The notes below the pieces were generated by a model that was not told the origin of the DNA, did not search any database, and worked only from the letters and a program-made list of their open reading frames with translations. 64,000 nt of DNA, taken from positions 1-64,000 of the forward strand of contig NZ_ANPE02000069.1 in the NCBI RefSeq assembly GCF_000328305.2, written 5' to 3'. Both the position numbers and the translations under genes were made by a program. Source of the DNA: Arthrobacter crystallopoietes BAB-32 (GTDB lineage Bacteria > Actinomycetota > Actinomycetes > Actinomycetales > Micrococcaceae). Below are positions 35,827-53,248 of the stretch, in pieces; position 1 is the stretch's first letter; every line of letters starts with the position of its first letter.

Positions 35827-37493
35827 CTAGTGGCTGGCGATCCCAGCCTTCGTCTCGGCTTCCTCAACCTCGGCGTGGCCGTGGCTGTGTGCAGCTTCGA
35901 GTTCTGCCGGAGTTACCGGAGCAACGCGGTCTTCGAAGAAGAACCGGGACAGCCGTCCGCGGAGCTTCTCCGAGCGGGTGACGCGGCCGTTGGCGTTAGC
36001 TACGGCTGGCTGGACCTCCGGTGATTCGAAGCTCACCAGGCGGTGCAGCTTGTAATCGTTGAGCGGCTCATGAACTTCGATGAACTCACCATGCGGCAGG
36101 CGGACGATGCGTCCTGTTTCGCGGCCATGGAGGACGATCTCGCGGTCCTTGCGCTGCAGCGCAAGGCAAATCCGGCGGGTCACCATGAAGCCGACGATCG
36201 GACCGAAGATGAACAGCACGCGCAGCCAGTAGGTGACGTCATTCAGCGAAACCATGAAGTGCGTGGCGATCAGGTCGGAGCTGGCAGCTGCCCACATCAC
36301 GGCATACCAGATCACACCGGCAACGCCGGTAGCCGTCCGGAACGGAGCGTTACGCGGGCGGTCCAGGATGTGGTGTTCGCGGTCGTCCTTGGTGACCCAG
36401 CGTTCGATCCAGGGCCACGTGAACATCAGGCCGAACAGAATGCCTGCGGGGACGAGCGCGGGCAGCAGCACGTTCAGGGTGAGCGTGCGGCCGAAGATCA
36501 CGTACTCGAAGGCAAAGTCTCCCAGGACGCCCGGCATCAGGCGGAGCGCGCCATCGACCCAGCCGATGTACCAGTCAGGCTGGGTACCTGCGGACACGGG
36601 GGAGGGGTCGTAGGGGCCGTAATCCCAGATCGGAAGGATCTGGAAGTTGGCAGCGATGGCAGCCAGGACGCCGAAGACGATGAAGAAGAAGCCGCCTGCC
36701 TTCGCCGCGTAAACGGGACCGACGGGGAAGCCGACGACGTTGTTTTCGGTACGGCCGGGCCGGGGTACTGCGTGTGCTTGTGCACGACAACCATGAACAG
36801 GTGGATCGCGATCATCAGGAGGATGATGGCGGGCACCAGGAGGATGTGGAGCACGTAGAGCCGGCCGACGATGGCTGTGCCAGGGAACTCGCCGCCGAAG
36901 AGGAACATGGAAATGTAGGTGCCGACCAGCGGGATTGCCTTGATAACGCCGTCGATAATGCGCAGACCGTTGCCGGAAAGCAGGTCATCAGGCAGCGAGT
37001 AGCCGGTGAAACCGGCAGCCAGGGCGAGGATCAGCAGAACACAGCCGACAACCCAGTTCAGTTCGCGCGGCCGGCGGAAGGCGCCGGTGAAGAATACACG
37101 GAGCATGTGCACCGAAACCGACGCCACGAACAGCAGAGCAGCCCAGTGGTGCAGCTGGCGCATGAACAGCCCGCCACGGATATCAAACGAAATATCCAGT
37201 GTGGACGCGTACGCGACCGACATCTCGACGCCCTGGAGGGGAACGTAGGAACCCTCGTAGTGCGTCTCCGCCATCGACGGGTCGAAGAAGAACGTCAGGA
37301 AGGTTCCCGACATCAGCAGGATCACGAAGGAATACAGCGCGACTTCACCGAACATGAAGGACCAGTGGTCGGGGAAGATCTTCCGCCCGAATTCCTTCAC
37401 GATCGGGGAGACACCGACTCTGGTGTCAACGAAGTTGGAGATACGGCCCAAGCCTGTCTTGGGTGTGTACGTATCGGGTGCAGAGGAACTCAT
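35827..37493 (-). pseudogene. qcrB: Cytochrome bc1 (bcc) complex cytochrome b subunit, one-base frameshift
   Basis: The 5' frame from 37493 holds the haem-binding core: WSFMFGEVALYSFVILL, RQLHHWAALLFVASVSVHMLRVFFTGAFRRPRELNW, GFTGYSLPDDLLSG and VLHILLVPAIILLMIAIHLFMVVVHKHTQYPGP, given by blocks. It then goes out of frame. The expected next residues (GRTENNVVGFPVGPVYAAKAGGFF and onward) are found in another frame that runs to 35827, including the C-terminal helices and the cytoplasmic tail. Restoring one C on the plus strand in the CC at 36755-36756 (GGG on the coding strand) rejoins them into a 555-residue protein, the normal length for actinobacterial QcrB. QcrB carries haems bL and bH and the quinol sites. 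Such a core gene makes a sequencing error quite likely. Adjacent to qcrA and qcrC in the standard qcrCAB order. Confidence 0.9.
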
Positions 37494-37495
37494 GA

Positions 37496-38524
37496 CTAGC
37501 CACGCTCCCAGTAGCTCGGTCCAACAGGTTCGTGGAAATCGCTTGTGGCGATGAGGTAGCCCTCGTCATCAACGCTGATCGGAAGCTGCGGCAGAGCGTG
37601 TGCAGCCGGTCCGAAGATAACCTTGCATTCCTGGGTCAGGTCGAAGGTCGACTGGTGGCAGGGGCACAACAAGTGGTGCGTCTGCTGCTCGTACAGCGCA
37701 ACAGGGCAACCGACGTGGGTGCAGATCTTGGAGTAGGCGACGATGCCGTTGTAGTTCCAGTCCTCGCGTCCCGGCGAGACATTCAGATCGTCCGGGTGCA
37801 GCCGCATCAGCAGGACGACGGCCTTGGCCTTCTCTTCAAGCTTGTGCTCGGCTTCGTTGAGGCCTTCGGGGATCACGTGGAAGGCCGAGCCGATGGTGAC
37901 ATCGGAGGCGCGGATGGGAGTGCCGTCCGGATCACGGGTGAGACGCACACCGGCATCCCACATTGTGTGGCGCAGGACGTCGGGATCGATTTCCTTCGAC
38001 AGGTCGCGGAAGATGCCGATCGCCGGCAGCGGTGCCAGGATCATCGCGCCCAGGAGGGTATTGCGAATCAGCGGACGGCGCTTGATGCCCGTTTCCTCGA
38101 TGATCTCACCGACCATCGTCTCGGCGATCTGGCGGTCCTCTTCGGTCCGCACTTCGTGCCGTTCCTCGGCAATTTCGTGGTCGGGCATCAGGGTCTTTGC
38201 CCAGTGGACAATGCCTACGCCGATTCCGAGCATGGCAAAGCACGTGCCCATGCCCAGCAAAAAGTTCTGCAGACGCAGCGTTGCGATGGTGTCATCCAAC
38301 CGGATGGCAAAGTATCCCACGAAGAAAAGCAGGGTACCGATGATCGAGATTACGAACAGTATCGCAACCTGACGTTCGGCCCGCTTTTCGGCCCGGGGAT
38401 CCTTGTCGGCAAGGCGCGGACGGTGCGGAGGAAGCCCAGGGTCCTGAAACTTCTCCACTTCGCCCTGGCCAGCCGTAGCAACGGTGCCCGAGGATTTCGG
38501 ACCGCCGTGACTATGGTCGCCCAT
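37496..38524 (-). CDS. qcrA: Rieske iron-sulfur subunit of bcc complex
   Basis: ATG 38524 gives 342 residues; an ATG four codons upstream is an alternative start. The protein has a His-rich N-terminus, three membrane helices of the actinobacterial QcrA (VAILFVISIIGTLLFFVGYFAI, FLLGMGTCFAMLGIGVGIV, and LIRNTLLGAMILAPLPAIGIF), and a C-terminal Rieske domain with CTHVGCPVALYEQ and CPCHQSTFDL, the two CxH ligand pairs of the 2Fe-2S cluster. It transfers electrons from quinol to the cytochrome c subunit. The qcrB start lies three bases beyond its stop. Confidence 0.96.
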   Translation of the reverse strand: MGDHSHGGPKSSGTVATAGQGEVEKFQDPGLPPHRPRLADKDPRAEKRAERQVAILFVISIIGTLLFFVGYFAIRLDDTIATLRLQNFLLGMGTCFAMLGIGVGIVHWAKTLMPDHEIAEERHEVRTEEDRQIAETMVGEIIEETGIKRRPLIRNTLLGAMILAPLPAIGIFRDLSKEIDPDVLRHTMWDAGVRLTRDPDGTPIRASDVTIGSAFHVIPEGLNEAEHKLEEKAKAVVLLMRLHPDDLNVSPGREDWNYNGIVAYSKICTHVGCPVALYEQQTHHLLCPCHQSTFDLTQECKVIFGPAAHALPQLPISVDDEGYLIATSDFHEPVGPSYWERG

Positions 38525-44019: not shown

Positions 44020-44062
44020 TTGAGTGGACGTCGTCAGCCGCGGTCGTTCGGCCTACCTCCAG

Positions 44063-44440
44063 TCAGGGCTCAAGCTGCTTGCGGAGGAGGCAGAACTCGT
44101 TGCCCTCGGGGTCGGCAAGGACGTGCCATTGCGCATCGCCGGCTTGCCCGACGTCCGCTGGCCGAGCGCCGAGCGAGAGCAGCCGCTCCAGCTCAGCGTC
44201 CTGGTCCCGATCGACAGGGTTCACATCGATGTGGAGGGGGAGTCTTCCAACGCGCGGATTGCTGCTGGGGCTCAGGATGATGGTCGGCTGCAGGTCGCCG
44301 AACCCGGCGTCAGGCGGGCCGATCTCTATTGCACCGTCCTCCCGATCGAGCTCAACATACCCGAGGACCTCGCTCCAAAACCGTGCCAGCCGTTCCGGGT
44401 CGGCGCAGTTGAGGACCAGTTCGCTGATACGACATGACAT
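44063..44440 (-). CDS. VOC-family glyoxalase-like protein
   Basis: ATG 44440 gives 125 residues, MSCRISELVLNCADPERLARFWSEVLGY and on to LPLHIDVNPVDRDQDAELERLLSLGAR and WHVLADPEGNEFCLL. This is the common glyoxalase-like domain (Glyoxalase_6 type) of unknown substrate. An ATG eight codons further up (44464) is an alternative start. No good ribosome site is seen for either. It is convergent with the decayed acetyltransferase. Confidence 0.82.
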   Translation of the reverse strand: MSCRISELVLNCADPERLARFWSEVLGYVELDREDGAIEIGPPDAGFGDLQPTIILSPSSNPRVGRLPLHIDVNPVDRDQDAELERLLSLGARPADVGQAGDAQWHVLADPEGNEFCLLRKQLEP

Positions 44441-44594
44441 GAAGCTCAGTGTACGGATGTGCATGCCTTCGGTATACGAACCCGGGTGACCAGTCCAAAT
44501 CAGGATCGCCCGTAGTGAGCCAGATTCGGCTTATGGTCCGGGTGTAATGAGAATGGGCAACTTTAGATGAGACACCAGGAGAAGCGACGAACAG

Positions 44595-44852
44595 TGTCCT
44601 TTCTCAATTTAGTTGGCCACCTCGACGTGGGAAAAGGCCAGATCAATTGAGAGGGATCGGCAAGGAACCGTCTCAATTTATCTGGCCATGCCGTACCGAT
44701 CGTTTTGGAGCTACTGCAGCACGAGCACCCTGACGGCGCGGGGTGCGGCACGCGAGCAGCATGCCTGGTGGCCAGATTAACTGAGACAGACCCTAAAACC
44801 CGTAGGTGGCCAGGTAAATTGCGAAAGTGGCCAGCTAAATTGACACAGGACA
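44595..44852. mobile_element. 258-bp MITE-like element with 26-bp terminal inverted repeats
   Basis: The left end 44595-44620 (TGTCCTTTCTCAATTTAG then TTGGCCAC) and the inverted right end 44827-44852 (TGTCCTGTGTCAATTTAG then CTGGCCAC) match at 23 of 26 positions. Both are flanked by the same five bases AACAG (44590-44594 and 44853-44857), a target duplication. Inside are four more copies of the TGGCCAGNTAAATTGA motif (44635-44653 plus, 44671-44688 minus, 44769-44788 plus, 44807-44823 plus). No transposase is encoded, so it must have been moved by a full-length relative. Multiple end repeats and a TGT terminus are typical of IS21-family ends; that family label is inference. Confidence 0.82.
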
Positions 44853-44894: not shown

Positions 44895-44922
44895 ACTTGA
44901 CATAATGCAGGTTATCGGCGAT
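44895..44922 (-). other. dif: dif-like XerC/XerD recombination site
   Basis: On the plus strand ACTTGACATAA (44895-44905), a central TGCAGG, then TTATCGGCGAT (44912-44922). Read on the minus strand this has XerC arm ATCGCCGATAA, six bases, and XerD arm TTATGTCAAGT. The arms agree with bacterial dif (GATAA/CATAA, six bases, TTATG) and, from memory, with actinobacterial dif ending TTATGTCAAGT. The dominant coding strand changes at this place, as expected at a terminus. Confidence 0.78.
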
Positions 44923-45306: not shown

Positions 45307-45336
45307 TTACTTGACATAACTAATGTTCGGAACCCG
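45307..45336 (-). other. Second partial Xer site (XerD arm only)
   Basis: TTACTTGACATAA at 45307-45319 repeats 44893-44905 exactly over 13 bases in the same direction, including the whole 11-base XerD arm. The six central bases (CTAATG) and the following arm (TTCGGAACCCG) are different. A degraded or foreign XerC arm is what an element integrated at dif leaves behind. Confidence 0.55.
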
Positions 45337-45535: not shown

Positions 45536-47923
45536 TTATGCGCCTACGTACGCCGCGAGGTGCTTTCCGGTCAGGGTTGAGCGGGCGGCCACGAGAGCGG
45601 CGGGTGTGCCCTCGAAGACGATCCGGCCGCCGTCGTGCCCTGCCCCGGGACCAAGGTCGATGATCCAATCTGCATGCGCCATGACTGCTTGATGGTGTTC
45701 GATGACGATCACGGATTTGCCTGCGTCGACCAGCCGGTCGAGGAGCCCGAGAAGCTGCTCGACGTCGGCGAGGTGGAGGCCGGTGGTCGGCTCGTCGAGG
45801 ATATAGATGTCCCCCTTCTCGCCCATCTGGGTGGCCAGCTTGAGCCGCTGCCGCTCGCCGCCGGAGAGGGTGGTCAGCGGCTGGCCAAGCGAGAGGTAGC
45901 CGAGTCCGACGTCGGCGAGCCGGTCCAGGATCTTGTGGGCTGCCGGCGTGCGTGCCTCGCCGGCGCTGAAGAATTCCTCGGCCTCGGTGACGGGCATCGC
46001 GAGCACCTCGGCGATGTTGCGGCCGCCCAGCCTGTACTCCAGGACCGACGCCTGGAACCGCTTGCCTTCGCAATCCTCGCAGGTCGATTCGACGGTGGCC
46101 ATGACGCCCAGGTCCGTGTAGATGACGCCGGCGCCGTTGCAGGTCGGGCAGGCGCCCTCGGAGTTGGAGCTGAAGAGCGCGGGCTTCACGCCGTTGGCTT
46201 TCGCAAAGGCCTTGCGGATGGGGTCGAGCAGCCCGGTGTAGGTCGCCGGATTGCTGCGTCGCGAGCCGCGGATGGCGCTTTGATCGACCACCACCACGCC
46301 GTCGCGGCCGGCGACGGACCCGTGGATCAGTGAGCTCTTGCCCGAGCCTGCCACGCCGGTGATGACGCTCAGGACTCCAAGCGGAATGTCTGCGTCGACG
46401 TTCTGCAGGTTGTTGGCGCTGGCGCCGCGTACCTCCAAAGCGCCGGACGGCGTGCGTACGGAGGGCTTCAGGGCGGCGCGGTCGTCGAGGTGCCTGCCGG
46501 TCAGCGTGTCGCTGACGCGCAGCCCGTCCACGGTTCCTTCGAAGACGACTTCCCCGCCCTCGCTGCCGGCACGCGGACCGAGGTCGACAACGTGGTCTGC
46601 GATCGCGATGGCCTCCGGTTTGTGCTCGACCACGAGGACGGTGTTGCCCTTGTCGCGCAACTGCAGCAGGAGGTTGTTCATCCGCTCGATGTCGTGGGGA
46701 TGCAGGCCGATCGTGGGCTCGTCAAAAACGTAGGTGACGTCGGTCAGTGACGACCCCAGATGGCGGATCATCTTGGTGCGCTGCGCCTCGCCACCGGACA
46801 GGGTGCCCGCCGGCCGGTCGAGCGAGAGGTACCCCAGCCCGATTTCCGTGAACGAGTCGAGGAGGTCCTGCAGCCCGGCCAGCAGCGGGGCCACCGACGG
46901 TTCATCAAGTTCCCGGATCCAGCCGGCCAGATCGCTGATCTGCATGGAACAGACATCCGCGATGTTCTTACCGCGGATCTTCGACGACAGCGCCTCCTGG
47001 GCGAGGCGGGTGCCGCCGCAGTCGGGGCAGGTGGTGAAGGTGATCGCGCGGTCGACGAACGCCCGGACGTGCGGCTGCATCGCCTCGCGGTCCTTCGAGA
47101 GCATCGATTTCTGGATCTTGGGGATCAGGCCCTCATAGGTCAGGTTGACGCCCTCGACCTTGATCTTTTCCGGGTCGCTGTAGAGCAGCTTGTGCAGCTC
47201 TTTCTTGCTGAACTTCGCAATGGGCTTGTCCATCGGCAGTCCTGCCCCGCTGAAGATCCTGCCGTACCAGCCGTCCATGCTGTAGCCGGGAACCGTCAGG
47301 GCGCCTTCGGCGAGGGATTTGGTGTCGTCGTACAGCGCCGTCAGGTCGAAATCACTGACCGACCCCATGCCTTCACAGCGGGGGCACATGCCACCGAGGC
47401 GGTTGAACGTCGCCTTCTCCGCCTTGGTTTTGTTGCCGCGCTCGACCGTGATCGCGCCGCTGGCTTTCACCGTGGGCACATTGAACGAATACGCGTTGGG
47501 CGACCCGATGTGCGGCTCCCCCAGCCGGCTGAACAGAATGCGCAGCATCGCGTTGGCATCGGTCGCGGTGCCGACGGTCGAGCGGGGGTTGGCGCCCATC
47601 CTCTCCTGGTCGACAATGATCGCAGTGGTCAGGCCCTCGAGCCGGTCGACTTCCGGCCGCGCGAGCGCGGGCATGAACCCCTGAACGAAGGCGCTGTAGG
47701 TTTCGTTGATCATCCGCTGCGATTCCGCCGCGATCGTGCCGAAGACAAGGGAACTCTTGCCGGAGCCGGAGACACCGGTGAACACCGTCAGCCGGCGCTT
47801 TGGGAGCTCGACGTTGACGTCCTTGAGGTTGTTCTCGCGCGCGCCCTGGACCCGGATCAGGTCATGGCTGTCGGCATGATGCAGGGCTGCCGGCTCGCTG
47901 TCCGTCCTCGTGGTCATGCTCAT
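45536..47923 (-). CDS. UvrA-like ABC ATPase (DrrC-type, short)
   Basis: ATG 47923, five bases after GGAG, gives 795 residues, about 150 less than true UvrA. Two ABC domains are present: FTGVSGSGKSSLVFGTIAAES and ITGVAGSGKSSLIHG (Walker A), and LSGGEAQRTKM and LSGGERQRLKLATQMG signatures, with zinc-type Cys pairs (CPRCEGMG, CPDCGGTRL, CPTCNGAG, CEDCEGKRF). Such UvrA-like proteins without UvrB/UvrC partners include DrrC, linked to resistance against DNA-binding drugs. True uvrA with uvrB/C is presumably elsewhere. It is thus better named UvrA-like than excinuclease. It lies right beside the Xer region, so recent acquisition is possible but codon use looks like its neighbours. Confidence 0.88.
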   Translation of the reverse strand: MSMTTRTDSEPAALHHADSHDLIRVQGARENNLKDVNVELPKRRLTVFTGVSGSGKSSLVFGTIAAESQRMINETYSAFVQGFMPALARPEVDRLEGLTTAIIVDQERMGANPRSTVGTATDANAMLRILFSRLGEPHIGSPNAYSFNVPTVKASGAITVERGNKTKAEKATFNRLGGMCPRCEGMGSVSDFDLTALYDDTKSLAEGALTVPGYSMDGWYGRIFSGAGLPMDKPIAKFSKKELHKLLYSDPEKIKVEGVNLTYEGLIPKIQKSMLSKDREAMQPHVRAFVDRAITFTTCPDCGGTRLAQEALSSKIRGKNIADVCSMQISDLAGWIRELDEPSVAPLLAGLQDLLDSFTEIGLGYLSLDRPAGTLSGGEAQRTKMIRHLGSSLTDVTYVFDEPTIGLHPHDIERMNNLLLQLRDKGNTVLVVEHKPEAIAIADHVVDLGPRAGSEGGEVVFEGTVDGLRVSDTLTGRHLDDRAALKPSVRTPSGALEVRGASANNLQNVDADIPLGVLSVITGVAGSGKSSLIHGSVAGRDGVVVVDQSAIRGSRRSNPATYTGLLDPIRKAFAKANGVKPALFSSNSEGACPTCNGAGVIYTDLGVMATVESTCEDCEGKRFQASVLEYRLGGRNIAEVLAMPVTEAEEFFSAGEARTPAAHKILDRLADVGLGYLSLGQPLTTLSGGERQRLKLATQMGEKGDIYILDEPTTGLHLADVEQLLGLLDRLVDAGKSVIVIEHHQAVMAHADWIIDLGPGAGHDGGRIVFEGTPAALVAARSTLTGKHLAAYVGA

Positions 47924-48125
47924 CCTGTCTCCATCTGTCACTCGTGGTAGGCACGGCATCTCCGCCGGCGCACCCGGTCCTGATTTAACCAGCTTCCGTG
48001 CGCCTTTCACGGCCGATGGCCGCTACGTTCATGCCAGTCAGTCTAGGCCCGGCCGCCGGGCGCGTGCTTCTTGATTCCTGATCCGTTTGCTCCGTCCCGG
48101 GACCGTCATGGCATACCATGTGCCC

Positions 48126-48716
48126 ATGGCCCAAGCCGGCGCGGGGCGACGAACGCCGCAGATTCCAGCGGTGGTGAGCATGCTGACCGCCCTGCTGGTT
48201 GCCTCCTGCAGTCCCACCGGAAGCGCGCCAAACGGACCTGCCTCTCCCCCGGGATCCGCGGCCGGTGTGCCTGAACATGGACTTAGTGCGGCGATCGCAG
48301 CGGCCGACGGCGAGGGCGCGGCTGGAGCGGTCCTGGTCACCGTCCGCAACGATTCGGACTCGCCGGTGCTCCTGCTGGCCGTGACGCTGTATGCCAACGG
48401 TTACGACGGCGGAGCGGACTGGGTGCCGGAACGTTCCGGCGGGTTTCGGGTTGCACCGGGAAACGAACTGAGCGTGGCAGCGGCGCTGCCGGAGGTCCGG
48501 TGCAGCGCCGGGGAACCCGGGGATGCCGAGGTCGCGATCACCGTGGACCAGGCTAAGGCAGGGTCCACCACGGTCGAAGTGGTGGCACAGGATGAGCAGC
48601 AGGTCCTGGTCCGCCACCACCGCCGGGAATGCCGGCAGGAAGCAGCCGCTGCGGCGCCGCGGGTCGGGCAAGATGGAGTCGAACACTATCCCAGCACCTT
48701 CGAAAGGCGGGTTTAG
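48126..48716 (+). CDS. Putative secreted lipoprotein
   Basis: ATG 48126 gives 196 residues; upstream ATG/TTG codons from 48087 are alternatives. A signal peptide IPAVVSMLTALLVASC ends in a lipobox (VASC), then a Ser/Pro/Gly linker. The mature part has a beta-rich look, GAVLVTVRNDSDSPVLLLAVTLYANGYDG and ELSVAAALPEVRC and EVAITVDQAKAGSTTVEVV. I do not recognise a family. It stops five bases before the peptide deformylase start and may share its transcript. Confidence 0.6.
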   Translation: MAQAGAGRRTPQIPAVVSMLTALLVASCSPTGSAPNGPASPPGSAAGVPEHGLSAAIAAADGEGAAGAVLVTVRNDSDSPVLLLAVTLYANGYDGGADWVPERSGGFRVAPGNELSVAAALPEVRCSAGEPGDAEVAITVDQAKAGSTTVEVVAQDEQQVLVRHHRRECRQEAAAAAPRVGQDGVEHYPSTFERRV

Positions 48717-48721
48717 CGCAC

Positions 48722-49351
48722 ATGAGTGATCCCTCGCCGTCGTCCATTCGCGCCGCGGTGGAAGCTGTCCTGGCGGATCCCGCTCCAGGAATAGTCCAGT
48801 TGGGCCATCCCGTCCTGCGGCGGGCGGCCGTTCCGTACGACGGGCAGATCGACGACGCGGTCCTCCACGCTTTGCTGGTGCTGATGCGCCACGTGATGCA
48901 TGCCGCTCCTGGTGTGGGCCTGGCCGCTCCGCAGTTGGCAATTCCGCTCCGCATCGCTGTGCTGGAGGACCGGTATGAGGTCGCGGCGGACGTGGCGCAG
49001 ACCCGGGAGCGGCTGCCTTTGGATCTGCTGGCCGTGATCAATCCGAACTACCGGCCGATCGGCGGCGAAACGGCGGCCTTTTATGAGGGATGCCTCTCGT
49101 TCACGGGCTACCAGGCTGTGGTGGAACGTCCCCGGCAGATCGAATTGAGCTACCACTGTGCGGACGGAACGCCGGTTGTCCGCCGGCTGAGTGGCTGGCA
49201 GGCACGGATCGCACAGCATGAGACCGACCACCTGGACGGGACCATCTATATCGACAAGGCGCTGACCCGTTCGCTGTGCAGCAACGAGGAATACTCCCGA
49301 CGTTGGGCCCAGCCGGACATCGAGGAGGCCCGGTCCGGACTGGGCTTCTGA
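48722..49351 (+). CDS. def: Peptide deformylase
   Basis: ATG 48722 gives 209 residues. The three deformylase motifs are intact: GVGLAAPQL (motif 1), EGCLSF (motif 2, Cys ligand) and QHETDHLDGTIYIDK (HExxDH, two His ligands and catalytic Glu). It removes the formyl group from nascent proteins. The N-terminal 30 residues (PSSIRAAVEAVLADPAPGIVQLGHPVLRR, by blocks) are the usual actinobacterial extension. Actinobacteria often have two or more def genes; this may be the second copy, as no fmt adjoins it. Confidence 0.93.
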   Translation: MSDPSPSSIRAAVEAVLADPAPGIVQLGHPVLRRAAVPYDGQIDDAVLHALLVLMRHVMHAAPGVGLAAPQLAIPLRIAVLEDRYEVAADVAQTRERLPLDLLAVINPNYRPIGGETAAFYEGCLSFTGYQAVVERPRQIELSYHCADGTPVVRRLSGWQARIAQHETDHLDGTIYIDKALTRSLCSNEEYSRRWAQPDIEEARSGLGF

Positions 49352-49385
49352 GGTCCCGCCGGTGCCGGCGGCTAGGATCTAATCC

Positions 49386-50252
49386 ATGGCACCGCTCCCC
49401 CATCCGCTCGATGCTGCCGGTCTGCTCCGCTGCCCAGTCTGCGCTGCCGGGATCGCTCCACGGGCCGGCTCGGTGACCGGCGGGCTCCGCTGTGCAGCAG
49501 GACATTCGTTCGACGGCGCCAAGCAGGGCTACATCAACCTGCTGACCGGACGGGGCACATCCTTCACGCCGGATACGGCGGAGATGGTCGCCGCCAGAGT
49601 GGAGTTCCTGGAGGGCGGGCACTACCTGCCGCTGGTGGAGTCGGTTGCCCAAACTGCGGGACGTCTGCTGGCGGATGTCGCCGATCCTGTCGTGGTTGAC
49701 GCCGGCGCAGGCACCGGCCACTATCTGGCAGCGGTCCTGCACGAGGTTCCGTCGGCGCGTGCCGTGGCGCTGGACCTGTCGAAGTACGCACTGCGGCGTG
49801 CGGCCCGCGGCTGTCCGCAAGCCCTGTGCCTGGTGTGGGATCTGTGGCGTCCGCTTCCCCTTGCCGACAGGGCGGCCGACCTGATGCTGAACATTTTCGC
49901 TCCCCGCAATGCCGCTGAGTACGCCAGAGTCCTCAAACCCGGCGGGCACCTGCTGGTCGTTACTCCTGCGCCGGGGCATATGGACGCCTTGAGGCAGCTC
50001 ATGCCGCTGCTGGCGATCGACGAGGACAAGTCTGATCGGCTCGCCGCGGCGTTCCGCGGAATGCTCCACCTGGAAGACGTTGAAGAGCTCGTGGTTCCGC
50101 TCCAGCTGGGCGCGGAGGACGTGCACAACCTGGTGATGATGGGGCCGAACGCGCACCACGTGGATGCCGCGGGCTTGAAGGGGCCGGACGGGCCGCCGAC
50201 CGCCGTCGAAGCACGGTTCACCGTGAGCATTTTTCGCAAGCCACTGAGCTAG
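49386..50252 (+). CDS. 23S rRNA guanine-N1 methyltransferase-like protein (RlmA/TlrB family)
   Basis: The 288-residue protein begins with a zinc finger (LRCPVCAAGI ... LRCAAGHSFD; Cys-x2-Cys, Cys-x3-His) and the FD-x-AKQGYINLL block, followed by the SAM-binding fold VVDAGAGTGHYLAAVL and LDLSKYALRRAAR, and later LNIFAPRNAAEYARVLKPGGHLLVVTP. That is the RlmA (G745) / TlrB (G748, tylosin resistance) family. Which base it methylates cannot be read here. ATG 49386 follows def after 34 bases. Confidence 0.9.
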   Translation: MAPLPHPLDAAGLLRCPVCAAGIAPRAGSVTGGLRCAAGHSFDGAKQGYINLLTGRGTSFTPDTAEMVAARVEFLEGGHYLPLVESVAQTAGRLLADVADPVVVDAGAGTGHYLAAVLHEVPSARAVALDLSKYALRRAARGCPQALCLVWDLWRPLPLADRAADLMLNIFAPRNAAEYARVLKPGGHLLVVTPAPGHMDALRQLMPLLAIDEDKSDRLAAAFRGMLHLEDVEELVVPLQLGAEDVHNLVMMGPNAHHVDAAGLKGPDGPPTAVEARFTVSIFRKPLS

Positions 50253-50430
50253 CAGAGGCATCGGGCGGGACGGACAGCCGGAAGCGGAGTCACAACTCGG
50301 CAACGGTTTGGTCCGCGAAGTCCTAACCGCCGGTTCAACCAAGCACAGGCGCTGATAATCCTGCATGATTGTGGTGTCGGTTACATTTTGCGGTGCCGGC
50401 GGCGGCTCCGCACTACCTCAGGAGGTAGCT

Positions 50431-50904
50431 GTGCTCGAATGGCTCGTTACCAACAGTTGGGTCCTTTGGCTTGCGCTCTTCCTGATCCTGGCCATCGTCG
50501 AAATAATGACCCTGGACCTGCTCTTCATCATGATGTCCTCCGGGGCGCTGGTTGCGCTGTTCACTGCATTGCTGGGCTGGCCGTTCTGGCTGCAGGTCGT
50601 CGTCTTCTGCGTGGTTGCCCTGTTGATGGTCCTCTTCGTCCGCCCCGTGGCCCTGCGGCATTTGCGCCGCGGACCGCGGGAACAGGCGACGAACATCGAG
50701 CGGCTGATCGGCGAGCAGGCGCTCGCGCTGGAAACCGTCACGGACCACACCGGCATGGTGAAGATCGGCGGCGATACCTGGACGGCGCGCTCGAGTGACG
50801 GCTCCGCTATCCCCGCCGGCGCTCGTGTTGCTGTTGAACGCATTGACGGTGCCACCGCCGTCGTCTATCCCACGGCCAGTCCGGGACCTTATCCAGCACA
50901 GTAG
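50431..50904 (+). CDS. NfeD-family membrane protein
   Basis: GTG 50431 has AGGAGGT eight bases upstream and gives 157 residues. Three hydrophobic segments at the N-terminus (WVLWLALFLILAIVEIMTLDLLFIMMSSGALVALF and FWLQVVVFCVVALLMVLFVRP, by blocks) precede an OB-fold domain (IGEQALALETVTDHTGMVKIGGDTWTARSSDG). NfeD proteins pair with stomatin/SPFH proteins, exactly as here with the next gene 27 bases on. Function in membrane domains or quality control is suggested. Confidence 0.9.
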   Translation: MLEWLVTNSWVLWLALFLILAIVEIMTLDLLFIMMSSGALVALFTALLGWPFWLQVVVFCVVALLMVLFVRPVALRHLRRGPREQATNIERLIGEQALALETVTDHTGMVKIGGDTWTARSSDGSAIPAGARVAVERIDGATAVVYPTASPGPYPAQ

Positions 50905-50931
50905 GAAGCACCGCACAAAGAAGGGGGAACA

Positions 50932-51900
50932 ATGGACACCGATACCGGCCTTTGGATCGTTCTGCTGGTACTGATCGTCTTTGTGGTGATAGTCCTGGCG
51001 CGGTCGATCAGGATCATCCCGCAGGCCCGCGCCGGGGTGGTTGAGCGCCTCGGCAAGTACCAGCGGACTCTGAACCCGGGACTCACTATCCTGATCCCGT
51101 TCGTCGACCGCCTGCTGCCCCTGCTTGATCTGCGCGAACAGGTCGTGTCATTTCCGCCCCAGCCGGTCATCACGGAAGACAATCTCGTGGTGTCCATCGA
51201 CACAGTGGTCTACTTCCAGGTCACCGATCCCCGTGCCGCGACCTACGAGATCGCCAACTACATCCAGGCAGTAGAGCAATTAACGACGACGACCCTGCGC
51301 AACGTGGTGGGTGGCCTGAACCTGGAAGAAGCCCTGACCTCGCGCGACCAGATCAACGGCCAACTGCGCGGAGTGCTGGATGAAGCCACCGGGCGATGGG
51401 GCATCCGCGTGTCCCGTGTCGAACTCAAGGCGATTGATCCGCCGATGTCCATCCAGGATTCGATGGAAAAGCAGATGCGGGCCGAACGCGACCGGCGGGC
51501 AGCGATCCTGACAGCCGAAGGAACCAAGCAGTCCCAGATCCTCACCGCCGAGGGCCAGCGGCAGGCCGCCATCCTGGCTGCCGAGGGCGACGCCAAGGCA
51601 GCCATTCTCCGCGCAGACGGCGAATCACAGGCCATCCAGAAGGTCTTCGACGCGATCCACAAGGGCAATCCCACCCAGCGGCTGCTGGCCTACCAGTACC
51701 TGCAGACCCTCCCCAAGCTCGCCGAAGGCAGCTCGAACAAGCTTTGGATCATACCGAGTGAAGTCGGTGAAGCGCTCAAAGGCATCGGCGATGTGCTGGG
51801 CCGAACGGAACAACAGGCCGCGGAGGGGCCAGAACCGGAGGCAGCCGCTTCGTCGGCTCCGGGCCAGGACCAGGCGGTGCGGACTCAGCAGCCGACCTAG
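50932..51900 (+). CDS. SPFH/stomatin-like (band 7) protein
   Basis: The 322-residue protein has one N-terminal membrane helix (GLWIVLLVLIVFVVIVLARSI), an SPFH domain (IIPQARAGVVERLGKYQRTLNPGLTILIPFVDR, by blocks; VSIDTVVYFQVTDPRAATYEIANY), a coiled-coil helical part with Ala/Glu repeats (AEGTKQSQILTAEGQRQAAILAAEGDAKAAI, by blocks), and a Pro/Ala-rich tail. Such proteins oligomerise on membranes (lipid-raft-like) and scaffold proteases. With NfeD it forms the classic pair. ATG 50932 has AAGGGGGAAC upstream. Confidence 0.93.
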   Translation: MDTDTGLWIVLLVLIVFVVIVLARSIRIIPQARAGVVERLGKYQRTLNPGLTILIPFVDRLLPLLDLREQVVSFPPQPVITEDNLVVSIDTVVYFQVTDPRAATYEIANYIQAVEQLTTTTLRNVVGGLNLEEALTSRDQINGQLRGVLDEATGRWGIRVSRVELKAIDPPMSIQDSMEKQMRAERDRRAAILTAEGTKQSQILTAEGQRQAAILAAEGDAKAAILRADGESQAIQKVFDAIHKGNPTQRLLAYQYLQTLPKLAEGSSNKLWIIPSEVGEALKGIGDVLGRTEQQAAEGPEPEAAASSAPGQDQAVRTQQPT

Positions 51901-51987
51901 GATCGTGGCCCCCGCCTTTACCTTCGGGCCGATGGTGGACTACTATTGGTTATTTGCCGGGACGCTGATGCCCGCATGCCCGGAACC

Positions 51988-52014
51988 GGGAACAGTTCTG
52001 GTTCTGCACGCGTT
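51988..52014 (+). promoter_or_regulatory. SigR/SigH-type promoter of rbpA
   Basis: GGGAAC at 51988-51993 and GTTGA at 52012-52016 are 18 bases apart, matching the disulfide-stress sigma factor consensus GGAAY-N18-GTT. It lies about 66 bases before the rbpA start. rbpA of Streptomyces is in the SigR regulon (known), so stress induction is predicted here. Confidence 0.6.
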
Positions 52015-52079
52015 GAACAATGTGCGGGTCACGGGACGGTTCAGCGCGCCGTCCCCACACAAGACAAGAGGGAGAAACC

Positions 52080-52427
52080 ATGAGCGATCGTAGCCTGCGG
52101 GGCATGCGCCTTGGAGCGCAGAGCATGGAAACGGAAGCCGGTGTCGAACCGGCGCCGCGCCAGCGGGTCGAGTACCGCTGTGAGGATGGCGAGCAGGTTT
52201 TCGTGACTTTCGCTGCCGAGGCTGAGATCCCCTCTACCTGGGTGTCGAAGACGGGCAAGGAAGCCGTGCTCGTCAACGGCGAAAAGCCCGATGAGAGCAA
52301 TGAGAAGCCGGTGCGCACGCACTGGGACATGCTCCTCGAACGCCGTTCCATTGAGGAACTGGAACAGATCCTCGAAGACCGTTTGAACAAGCTGCGCGAG
52401 CGTCGTGGAGAACGCCGTTCCGCTTAG
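52080..52427 (+). CDS. rbpA: RNA polymerase-binding protein RbpA
   Basis: ATG 52080 with AGGGAG upstream gives 115 residues, MSDRSLRGMRLGAQSMETE, then RVEYRCEDGEQVFVTFAAEAEIPSTWV (central domain), and the sigma-interacting helix HWDMLLERRSIEELEQILEDRLNKLRE (by blocks). RbpA binds RNA polymerase and the primary sigma factor and stabilises the open complex; it is restricted to actinobacteria. The Cys-x(n)-Cys zinc pair of some RbpA is reduced to one Cys (YRCEDG) here. It ends at a strong hairpin. Confidence 0.97.
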   Translation: MSDRSLRGMRLGAQSMETEAGVEPAPRQRVEYRCEDGEQVFVTFAAEAEIPSTWVSKTGKEAVLVNGEKPDESNEKPVRTHWDMLLERRSIEELEQILEDRLNKLRERRGERRSA

Positions 52428-52504: not shown

Positions 52505-53248
52505 TCAGGCCCGGGTCGAGGTGTTTCCGCCGCGGAGGGCCTTCCACCGCGACCGCAGGCCCCATTTCGTCACCAGCAGGATGGACTCCAGCACAATATT
52601 GCCGCTCATTTTGGAGTCGCCGAACTCCCGTTCCACGAAAGTGATCGGTACTTCGCGGACCGTCAGGCCAGCCTTAAGGGTCTTCCACGTGAGGTCTATT
52701 TGGAAGCAGTAACCGACGGATTCCACGGAGTCCAGGTCGATCCTGCGCAGTGTCGCCGACTTGAAGGCGTTGTAGCCGCCCGTGATGTCTTTAATACCAA
52801 CACCGAGCAGGATTCGGGAGTAGAGGCTGCCGCCCAGGGAGAGCAGCTTGCGGTGCAGCGGCCAGTTCACGACCTTGCCGCCGCGGATCCAGCGGGACCC
52901 CTTGGCCATATCGGCACCGTTGTCCAAGGCGCTGAGCAGGCGCTGCAGTTCCTCGGGCTGGTGGGAGCCGTCGGCGTCCATCTCCACGAGCACGTCGTAG
53001 CCGGCCTCAAGGCCCCACTTGAACCCGGCGATGTAGGCGGCGCCTAAGCCTTCCTTGCCCTGGCGGTGGAGGACATGGATGGCCCTGTCCCGGGCCGCCA
53101 GGGAGTCCGCGAGCTGCCCCGTCCCGTCGGGGGAATTGTCATCCACGACGAGCACATCGGAGTCGGGGACTGCGGCGCGGAGCCGGGCAATGGTTCTCGG
53201 CAGCGAATCGATTTCATTAAACGTCGGAATGATCGTGACGACCCGCAC
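52505..53248 (-). CDS. Polyprenol monophosphomannose synthase-like GT2
   Basis: The 247-residue family 2 glycosyltransferase has [73 protein letters not shown] (DAD metal site), [14 protein letters not shown] and [15 protein letters not shown]. This is the dolichol-phosphate mannosyltransferase (Ppm1/DPM1) type, which transfers mannose from GDP-mannose to polyprenyl phosphate for lipoglycans or protein mannosylation. No Lnt-type membrane partner adjoins. GTG 53248. It is often found next to rbpA in Micrococcaceae and mycobacteria. Confidence 0.92.

Follow-up and report, generated by a model that had tools for sequence, protein, structure and literature searches.

A very probable chromosomal dif and a lone XerD-type arm kept beside it in an Arthrobacter-type genome of the Micrococcaceae

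The 28 bp site at positions 44895–44922 (minus strand) of the window, by which we mean the whole analyzed stretch comprising bases 1–64,000 of the 72,365-base contig C279, is very probably the chromosomal dif of an Arthrobacter-type (Micrococcaceae) genome. At 45309–45319, also on the minus strand, lies a lone accessory XerD-type arm, TTATGTCAAGT, devoid of a XerC arm and assigned from its conservation in the genus together with enrichment and flank tests. We are highly confident that the window site is dif at the replication terminus, with the lone arm most likely giving XerD another place to bind. A broader proposal, to which we give even chances, is that several Micrococcaceae genera harbor a composite dif, in which the XerCD site is accompanied by at least one selected lone XerD arm, mostly 0.2–0.5 kb away, which would serve as a XerD-only platform, e.g. 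for SMC unloading or FtsK control. The dif itself is textbook, and 44895–44922 is one more example of it. The lone arm of 11 bases, if it binds XerD, would provide a DNA-level handle on the roles of XerD at the terminus apart from recombination.

Read directly, the minus strand of 44895–44922 is ATCGCCGATAA-CCTGCA-TTATGTCAAGT, which has the 11-6-11 form with conserved arms. By analogy with known dif sites, we take ATCGCCGATAA at 44912–44922 to be the XerC arm and TTATGTCAAGT at 44895–44905 to be the XerD arm, both on the minus strand; the core of the former, CGCCGATAA, is common to most sites of the family, and the latter was assigned from the sequence and from the genus and family sites. We searched the own genome, a draft of 4,348,607 bases in 347 contigs, using the pattern WTCGCCGATAA-N6-TTATGTCAAGT with up to 3 mismatches and the reversed pattern as a control. 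Three places matched, and 44895–44922 alone did so with 0 mismatches, the other two having 2 mismatches each, while the reversed pattern matched nowhere in the own genome at ≤3 mismatches. As expected of a chromosomal dif, there is a single best place, and the draft in which it stands alone is 99.76% complete. This bears out the 28-base, two-arm XerC/XerD-type site on the minus strand that a sequence-only reading of this DNA had proposed, and the draft offers no better match elsewhere.

Sites of dif form are present in the relatives as well. All 10 genomes of the genus contain at least one, and 8 of them contain more than one dif-like site when ≤3 mismatches are allowed. Across the family, a looser core pattern with 1 mismatch detected dif sites in 122 of 149 genomes, and the reversed control gave 0 matches in every own, genus and family genome searched. 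One feature counts against the assignment, namely that the central six bases are CCTGCA in the window versus TCTACA in 8 of the 10 genus genomes. The proteins that act at a chromosomal dif are also encoded in the own genome. Profile search found XerD above the cut-off (343 bits) and an FtsK gamma domain above its cut-off; a second match to the XerD model (269 bits, below the XerD cut-off) fits XerC, whose identity is given solely by this second-best match, and a third match is weak (67 bits).

The conserved neighbor on the XerC side of dif is a uvrA-like ABC ATPase gene at 45536–48010 (minus strand), identified by TIGR00630 (E 3.5e-210; 700.6 bits, below the cut-off of 729.8), pfam and synteny. 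A uvrA-like gene on this side is common to 8 of 9 relatives, being placed directly so in L006, L008, L009, L010, L011, L012 and L014 and separated from dif by an insertion in G001 (L026), while G004 has no uvrA-like gene within 1 kb of dif. As only 20 of the 119 loci in our wider family set have a uvrA-like gene within 1 kb of dif, this neighborhood is a genus-level trait. In G002, which is a single contig of 4,381,539 bases, the dif sharing the uvrA-like neighbor is located at 3,282,233. We sampled the GC skew of G002 in forty 20-kb pieces (0.8 of 4.38 Mb), taking dnaA as the fixed origin, and these samples place the sign change between 3.20 and 3.31 Mb, the interval that holds the syntenic dif; none of 500 permutations gave an equally good fit. 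The dnaA gene of G002 is at 921,982, and its dif is 169 kb (3.9% of the genome) off the opposite point; in G001, dif is 144 kb (3.0%) off the point opposite dnaA. With the own draft in 347 contigs, the position at the skew shift and opposite the origin is therefore read by synteny, from skew and dnaA in G002 and from dnaA in G001. The skew check that the sequence-only reading had suggested thus came out in its favor in a one-contig relative, and its claim of a chromosomal dif is supported by the sole 0-mismatch match, the genus sites, the uvrA-like synteny, the G002 skew and the opposition to dnaA.

When ORFs were picked over the whole of C279, 29 plus and 9 minus genes were found to the left of dif, and 5 plus and 15 minus genes to the right. 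Two of the left plus picks, 36774–37499 and 44024–44437, coincide in part with genes on the minus strand that have family matches (QcrB and glyoxalase-like, respectively), so that the left side is nearer to about 27 plus and 11 minus. The five plus genes on the right (48629–52427) lie between the uvrA-like gene and an unbroken minus block, which begins at 52,505. A strand switch, previously counted as 29 plus and 15 minus to the left and 6 plus and 11 minus to the right, is therefore present nearby but not exactly at the site. Similarly, the cumulative GC skew of the contig does have a peak, but at 53,237, which is 8.3 kb from dif instead of within a few kb of 44.9 kb and counts against the assignment.

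On the XerD side of dif are a glyoxalase-like gene at 44063–44464 (minus strand; PF18029, E 3.3e-24) and a repeat stretch at 44597–44852 (no strand assigned), which by eye resembles insertion-sequence ends and lies 43 bp from dif. This stretch is 90.7% identical over 259 bp to a sequence in C77 (L024 4090–4343), where the own genome has another dif-like site; at both sites it is 43–47 bp from the XerD side, as if it targeted the dif flank or had moved along with it. Farther left, QcrB (35827–37493) appears split into two overlapping minus frames, 36537–37493 and 35827–36597, the first of which corresponds to positions 2–241 of the 458 in the QcrB model and scores below the cut-off. The split is likely due to a frameshift or an assembly error.

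The lone arm, a feature absent from the sequence-only reading, is 414 bp from dif, on the same strand and in the same orientation, and inspection of the sequence revealed no XerC arm at 45309–45319. In the own genome TTATGTCAAGT occurs four times, i.e. in dif, in C77, in C328 and at 45309–45319. Every one of the 10 genus genomes has a lone arm on the XerC side of dif, as exact TTATGTCAAGT in eight and as TTATGTCAACC in G006 and G008. Its spacing from dif is 305–470 bp in nine genomes, and in G001 an insertion of 3.26 kb pushes the arm to 3.6 kb. Across the genus, identity in the two flanks of the lone arm is 0.31 and 0.39, which is near chance, and the 40-bp flanks of dif itself are 0.39 identical; over the 700 bp before dif, most pairs among 9 genomes share 36–56%, and G002, G003 and G007 share 70–75%. 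Part of the identity of the arm columns comes from the arms having been search targets, and the weight rests on every member of the genus having one. When the intergenic region was aligned, the lone arms did not line up, because their spacing varies. A co-variation of the arm ends with those of dif was perfect in the genus (8 GT/GT, 2 CT/CC) but failed in the genera g7, g22 and g32 and was dropped.

We examined enrichment of the arm in 119 dif loci, 9 from the genus and 110 from other genera of the family, with dif itself masked. The genus is represented by nine rows, and G001 was counted apart because its insertion moves the arm. The 110 loci were drawn from 114 non-genus family genomes with a match, leaving out G052, G057, G128 and G150. 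In most loci the search extended 1,000 bp from dif towards the XerC side and 300 bp towards the XerD side; one site was used from each genome with several dif-like sites, a choice that may not be chromosomal in some, e.g. G110, G085, G012 and g23. The 9-mer TTATGTCAA of the XerD arm had 42 exact occurrences in 39 of the 119 loci, compared with a mean of 0.32 and a maximum of 6 per 9-mer for 300 shuffled 9-mers in these loci. Neither reversed TTATGTCAA nor the XerC 9-mer CGCCGATAA occurred in the 119 masked loci, and the short XerC core CCGATAA had 7 matches in 7 loci. The wider motif TTATGT[CA]A[AG] matched 49 times versus 2 for its reverse. Arms with one mismatch showed no clear excess (15, with shuffled motifs averaging 8.4 and reaching 30 at most); in six arm-bearing genera they numbered 9 versus 2.8 (maximum 10). 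All 42 exact matches are preceded by a purine and followed by G or C, as is the 9-mer in most of the examined dif sites.

Five of the 42 matches are genic, four of them in a methyltransferase-like gene (L133, L150, L151 and L153) and one in a uvrA-like gene (L142). The occurrence of TTATGTCAAC within the methyltransferase-like gene near dif in these four loci looks like a coding coincidence. Outside the two checked genes there are 37 arm matches in 34 of the 119 loci, among which some could still be coding, the coding check having used three window proteins. The arm points in the same direction as dif in 36 of these 37.

Non-genic arms are unevenly distributed among the genera. They occur in 9/9 loci of g1, 7/7 of g32 (with two exact arms in three loci), 5/6 of g22 (the sixth has TTATGTCAG), 5/6 of g7 (on the XerD side of dif, at +186 to +206), 4/7 of g9 (one reversed), 1/1 of g30, 1/2 of g13, 1/6 of g24 and 1/7 of g4. 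No non-genic lone arm was found in the examined loci of the remaining genera, e.g. g10, g11, g14, g19, g20, g21, g25, g28 and g31. Flank identity around the arm is 0.36–0.47 in g7 and g32, but on the left in g22 it remains at 0.70, so that arm conservation there says less. In g22 and g30 (L154–L159 and L190), TTATC follows 5 bp past the lone XerD arm in direct orientation, and in L190 the sequence there is TTATCGG, with which a reversed XerC arm begins.

Beyond the family, we examined 30 of 70 matching genomes at the order level. One of the 30 loci repeats its own arm (reversed), and three more have a looser variant. As lone arms are absent from many genera and rare outside the family, dif in general does not require them. 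A scan of the whole collection for arm plus dif at 360–420 bp found 6 loci, three of them in Arthrobacter; the others, one each in a Propionibacteriales MAG, Nocardioides and Demequina, were given no weight. In seven whole genomes, outside dif-like sites and their arms, the 9-mer was counted 29 times versus 30 for the reversed control, and a terminus-wide array of arms was accordingly not seen. Among the matches listed in a search of the open-access literature, judged by titles and the starts of abstracts, there was no paper on lone XerD arms beside dif in this family.

The main rival to XerD docking at the lone arm is that the arm is a functionless scar, left when an element integrated at dif or when dif was duplicated and the XerC arm was lost. 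We consider this unlikely, though some points favor it. Elements do insert at dif, as the 3.26-kb element of G001 directly adjoins the XerC arm; extra full dif-like sites are frequent in the genus, as described above; and in the arm-less loci of g25, g28 and g31 and in one g9 locus the end of the uvrA-like gene is 41–79 bp from dif versus 486–803 bp in g1. Against a scar, the arm is kept in every genus genome although its flanks have diverged to near-chance identity, and in other genera it recurs at other spacings, on the opposite side of dif (g7) or doubled (g32). We thus favor a second XerD binding place.

The G001 element (L026 6771–10008; also in L027 and L028) is present at three places with 99.7–99.8% identity, which are the chromosomal dif, another chromosomal dif-like site and a plasmid dif-like site, in each case immediately next to the XerC arm. 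Encoding a tyrosine recombinase of 373 aa, an HTH protein of 117 aa and a protein of 492 aa that has no family match, it is perhaps a dif-hunting element.

The two runners-up in the own genome are identical 2-mismatch copies, AACACCGATAA-TTGATA-TTATGTCAAGT, at the ends of C77 and C328 (L023 19627–19654 and L024 4390–4417). As these contigs share a 94-bp end, the copies are probably one place, and as C77 has matches in the relaxase regions of Arthrobacter-type plasmids, this second dif-like site is probably plasmid-borne. It is very improbable that it is the true chromosomal dif and that the window site is of a plasmid or element type. Such an exchange would draw on the dif-like form of the C77/C328 copies, on the frequency of extra sites in the genus and on the ordinary transporter and enzyme ORFs of C328 (the plasmid comparison covered C77), but it is opposed by the 2 mismatches, by the relaxase-region resemblance of C77, by neither contig having another exact XerD arm and by the chromosomal synteny at the window site, where QcrA/QcrB-like, CtaE and TrpD genes are close by. 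Over 122 bp, made up of the second site and about 80 bp before it, there is 82% identity to the end of the G001 element together with its dif.

A promoter −35 box is a scarcely credible reading of the lone arm, even though the reverse complement of the arm, ACTTGACATAA, includes the consensus hexamer TTGACA, because in the 119 loci TTGACA is followed by TAA in 42 of 73 occurrences (3 for the next commonest trinucleotide) and a −10 at the right spacing (≤3 mismatches) accompanies 12 of 42 arms versus 24% of controls, which is about random.

XerC and XerD, activated by FtsK at the septum, turn a dimeric chromosome into monomers by recombining the copies of dif. In the own genome, XerC and XerD would bind the two arms of 44895–44922 and resolve chromosome dimers at the terminus, while the lone arm at 45309–45319 would hold XerD without XerC and add XerD at the terminus. 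That XerD binds the lone arm without XerC is inferred from the sequence; having XerD but not XerC, such a site could not recombine. The use that we prefer for the lone arm, on the analogy of Bacillus subtilis, is speculative: XerD docked there might unload arriving SMC complexes. A search for SMC in the own genome found two strong partial matches on two contigs, covering 2–398 and 845–1181 of 1181, both below the cut-off.

Karaboja and colleagues reportedly described, in 2021, SMC unloading in B. subtilis at several XerD sites over the terminus region. In contrast to this multi-site picture, the DNA examined here has a few arms within ~0.5 kb of dif and no excess elsewhere; several sites spread over the terminus, as would mark XerD-only sites for SMC unloading, were not found for TTATGTCAA in the seven genomes (29 versus 30 reversed). 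Unloading of SMC by XerD near the B. subtilis terminus is reported in PMC8242196 and PMC8357415, and is also covered in PMC12322038; in PMC13342612, dif is argued to be the main SMC unloading site more widely. A role of XerD at the terminus beyond recombination, as in these accounts of B. subtilis, would suit a XerC-less site.

In Kono et al., 2011 (PMC3025954), the chromosomal dif of the XerCD system is a 28 bp sequence with two 11-bp arms around 6 bp, located near the GC-skew shift. The window site is like it in its 28 bp, 11-6-11 form and, by synteny in G002, in its position at the skew shift. Unlike the dif described there, that of the genus keeps a lone XerD arm 305–470 bp away (3.6 kb in G001, behind the insertion). 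Extra DNA adjoining a Xer core site is also known from the plasmid sites cer and psi; according to PMC5357621, the accessory sequences of cer span ~180 bp and act in concert with PepA and ArgR. The window resembles cer and psi in having such additional DNA, but differs from cer in that what it adds is the XerD arm in a further copy.
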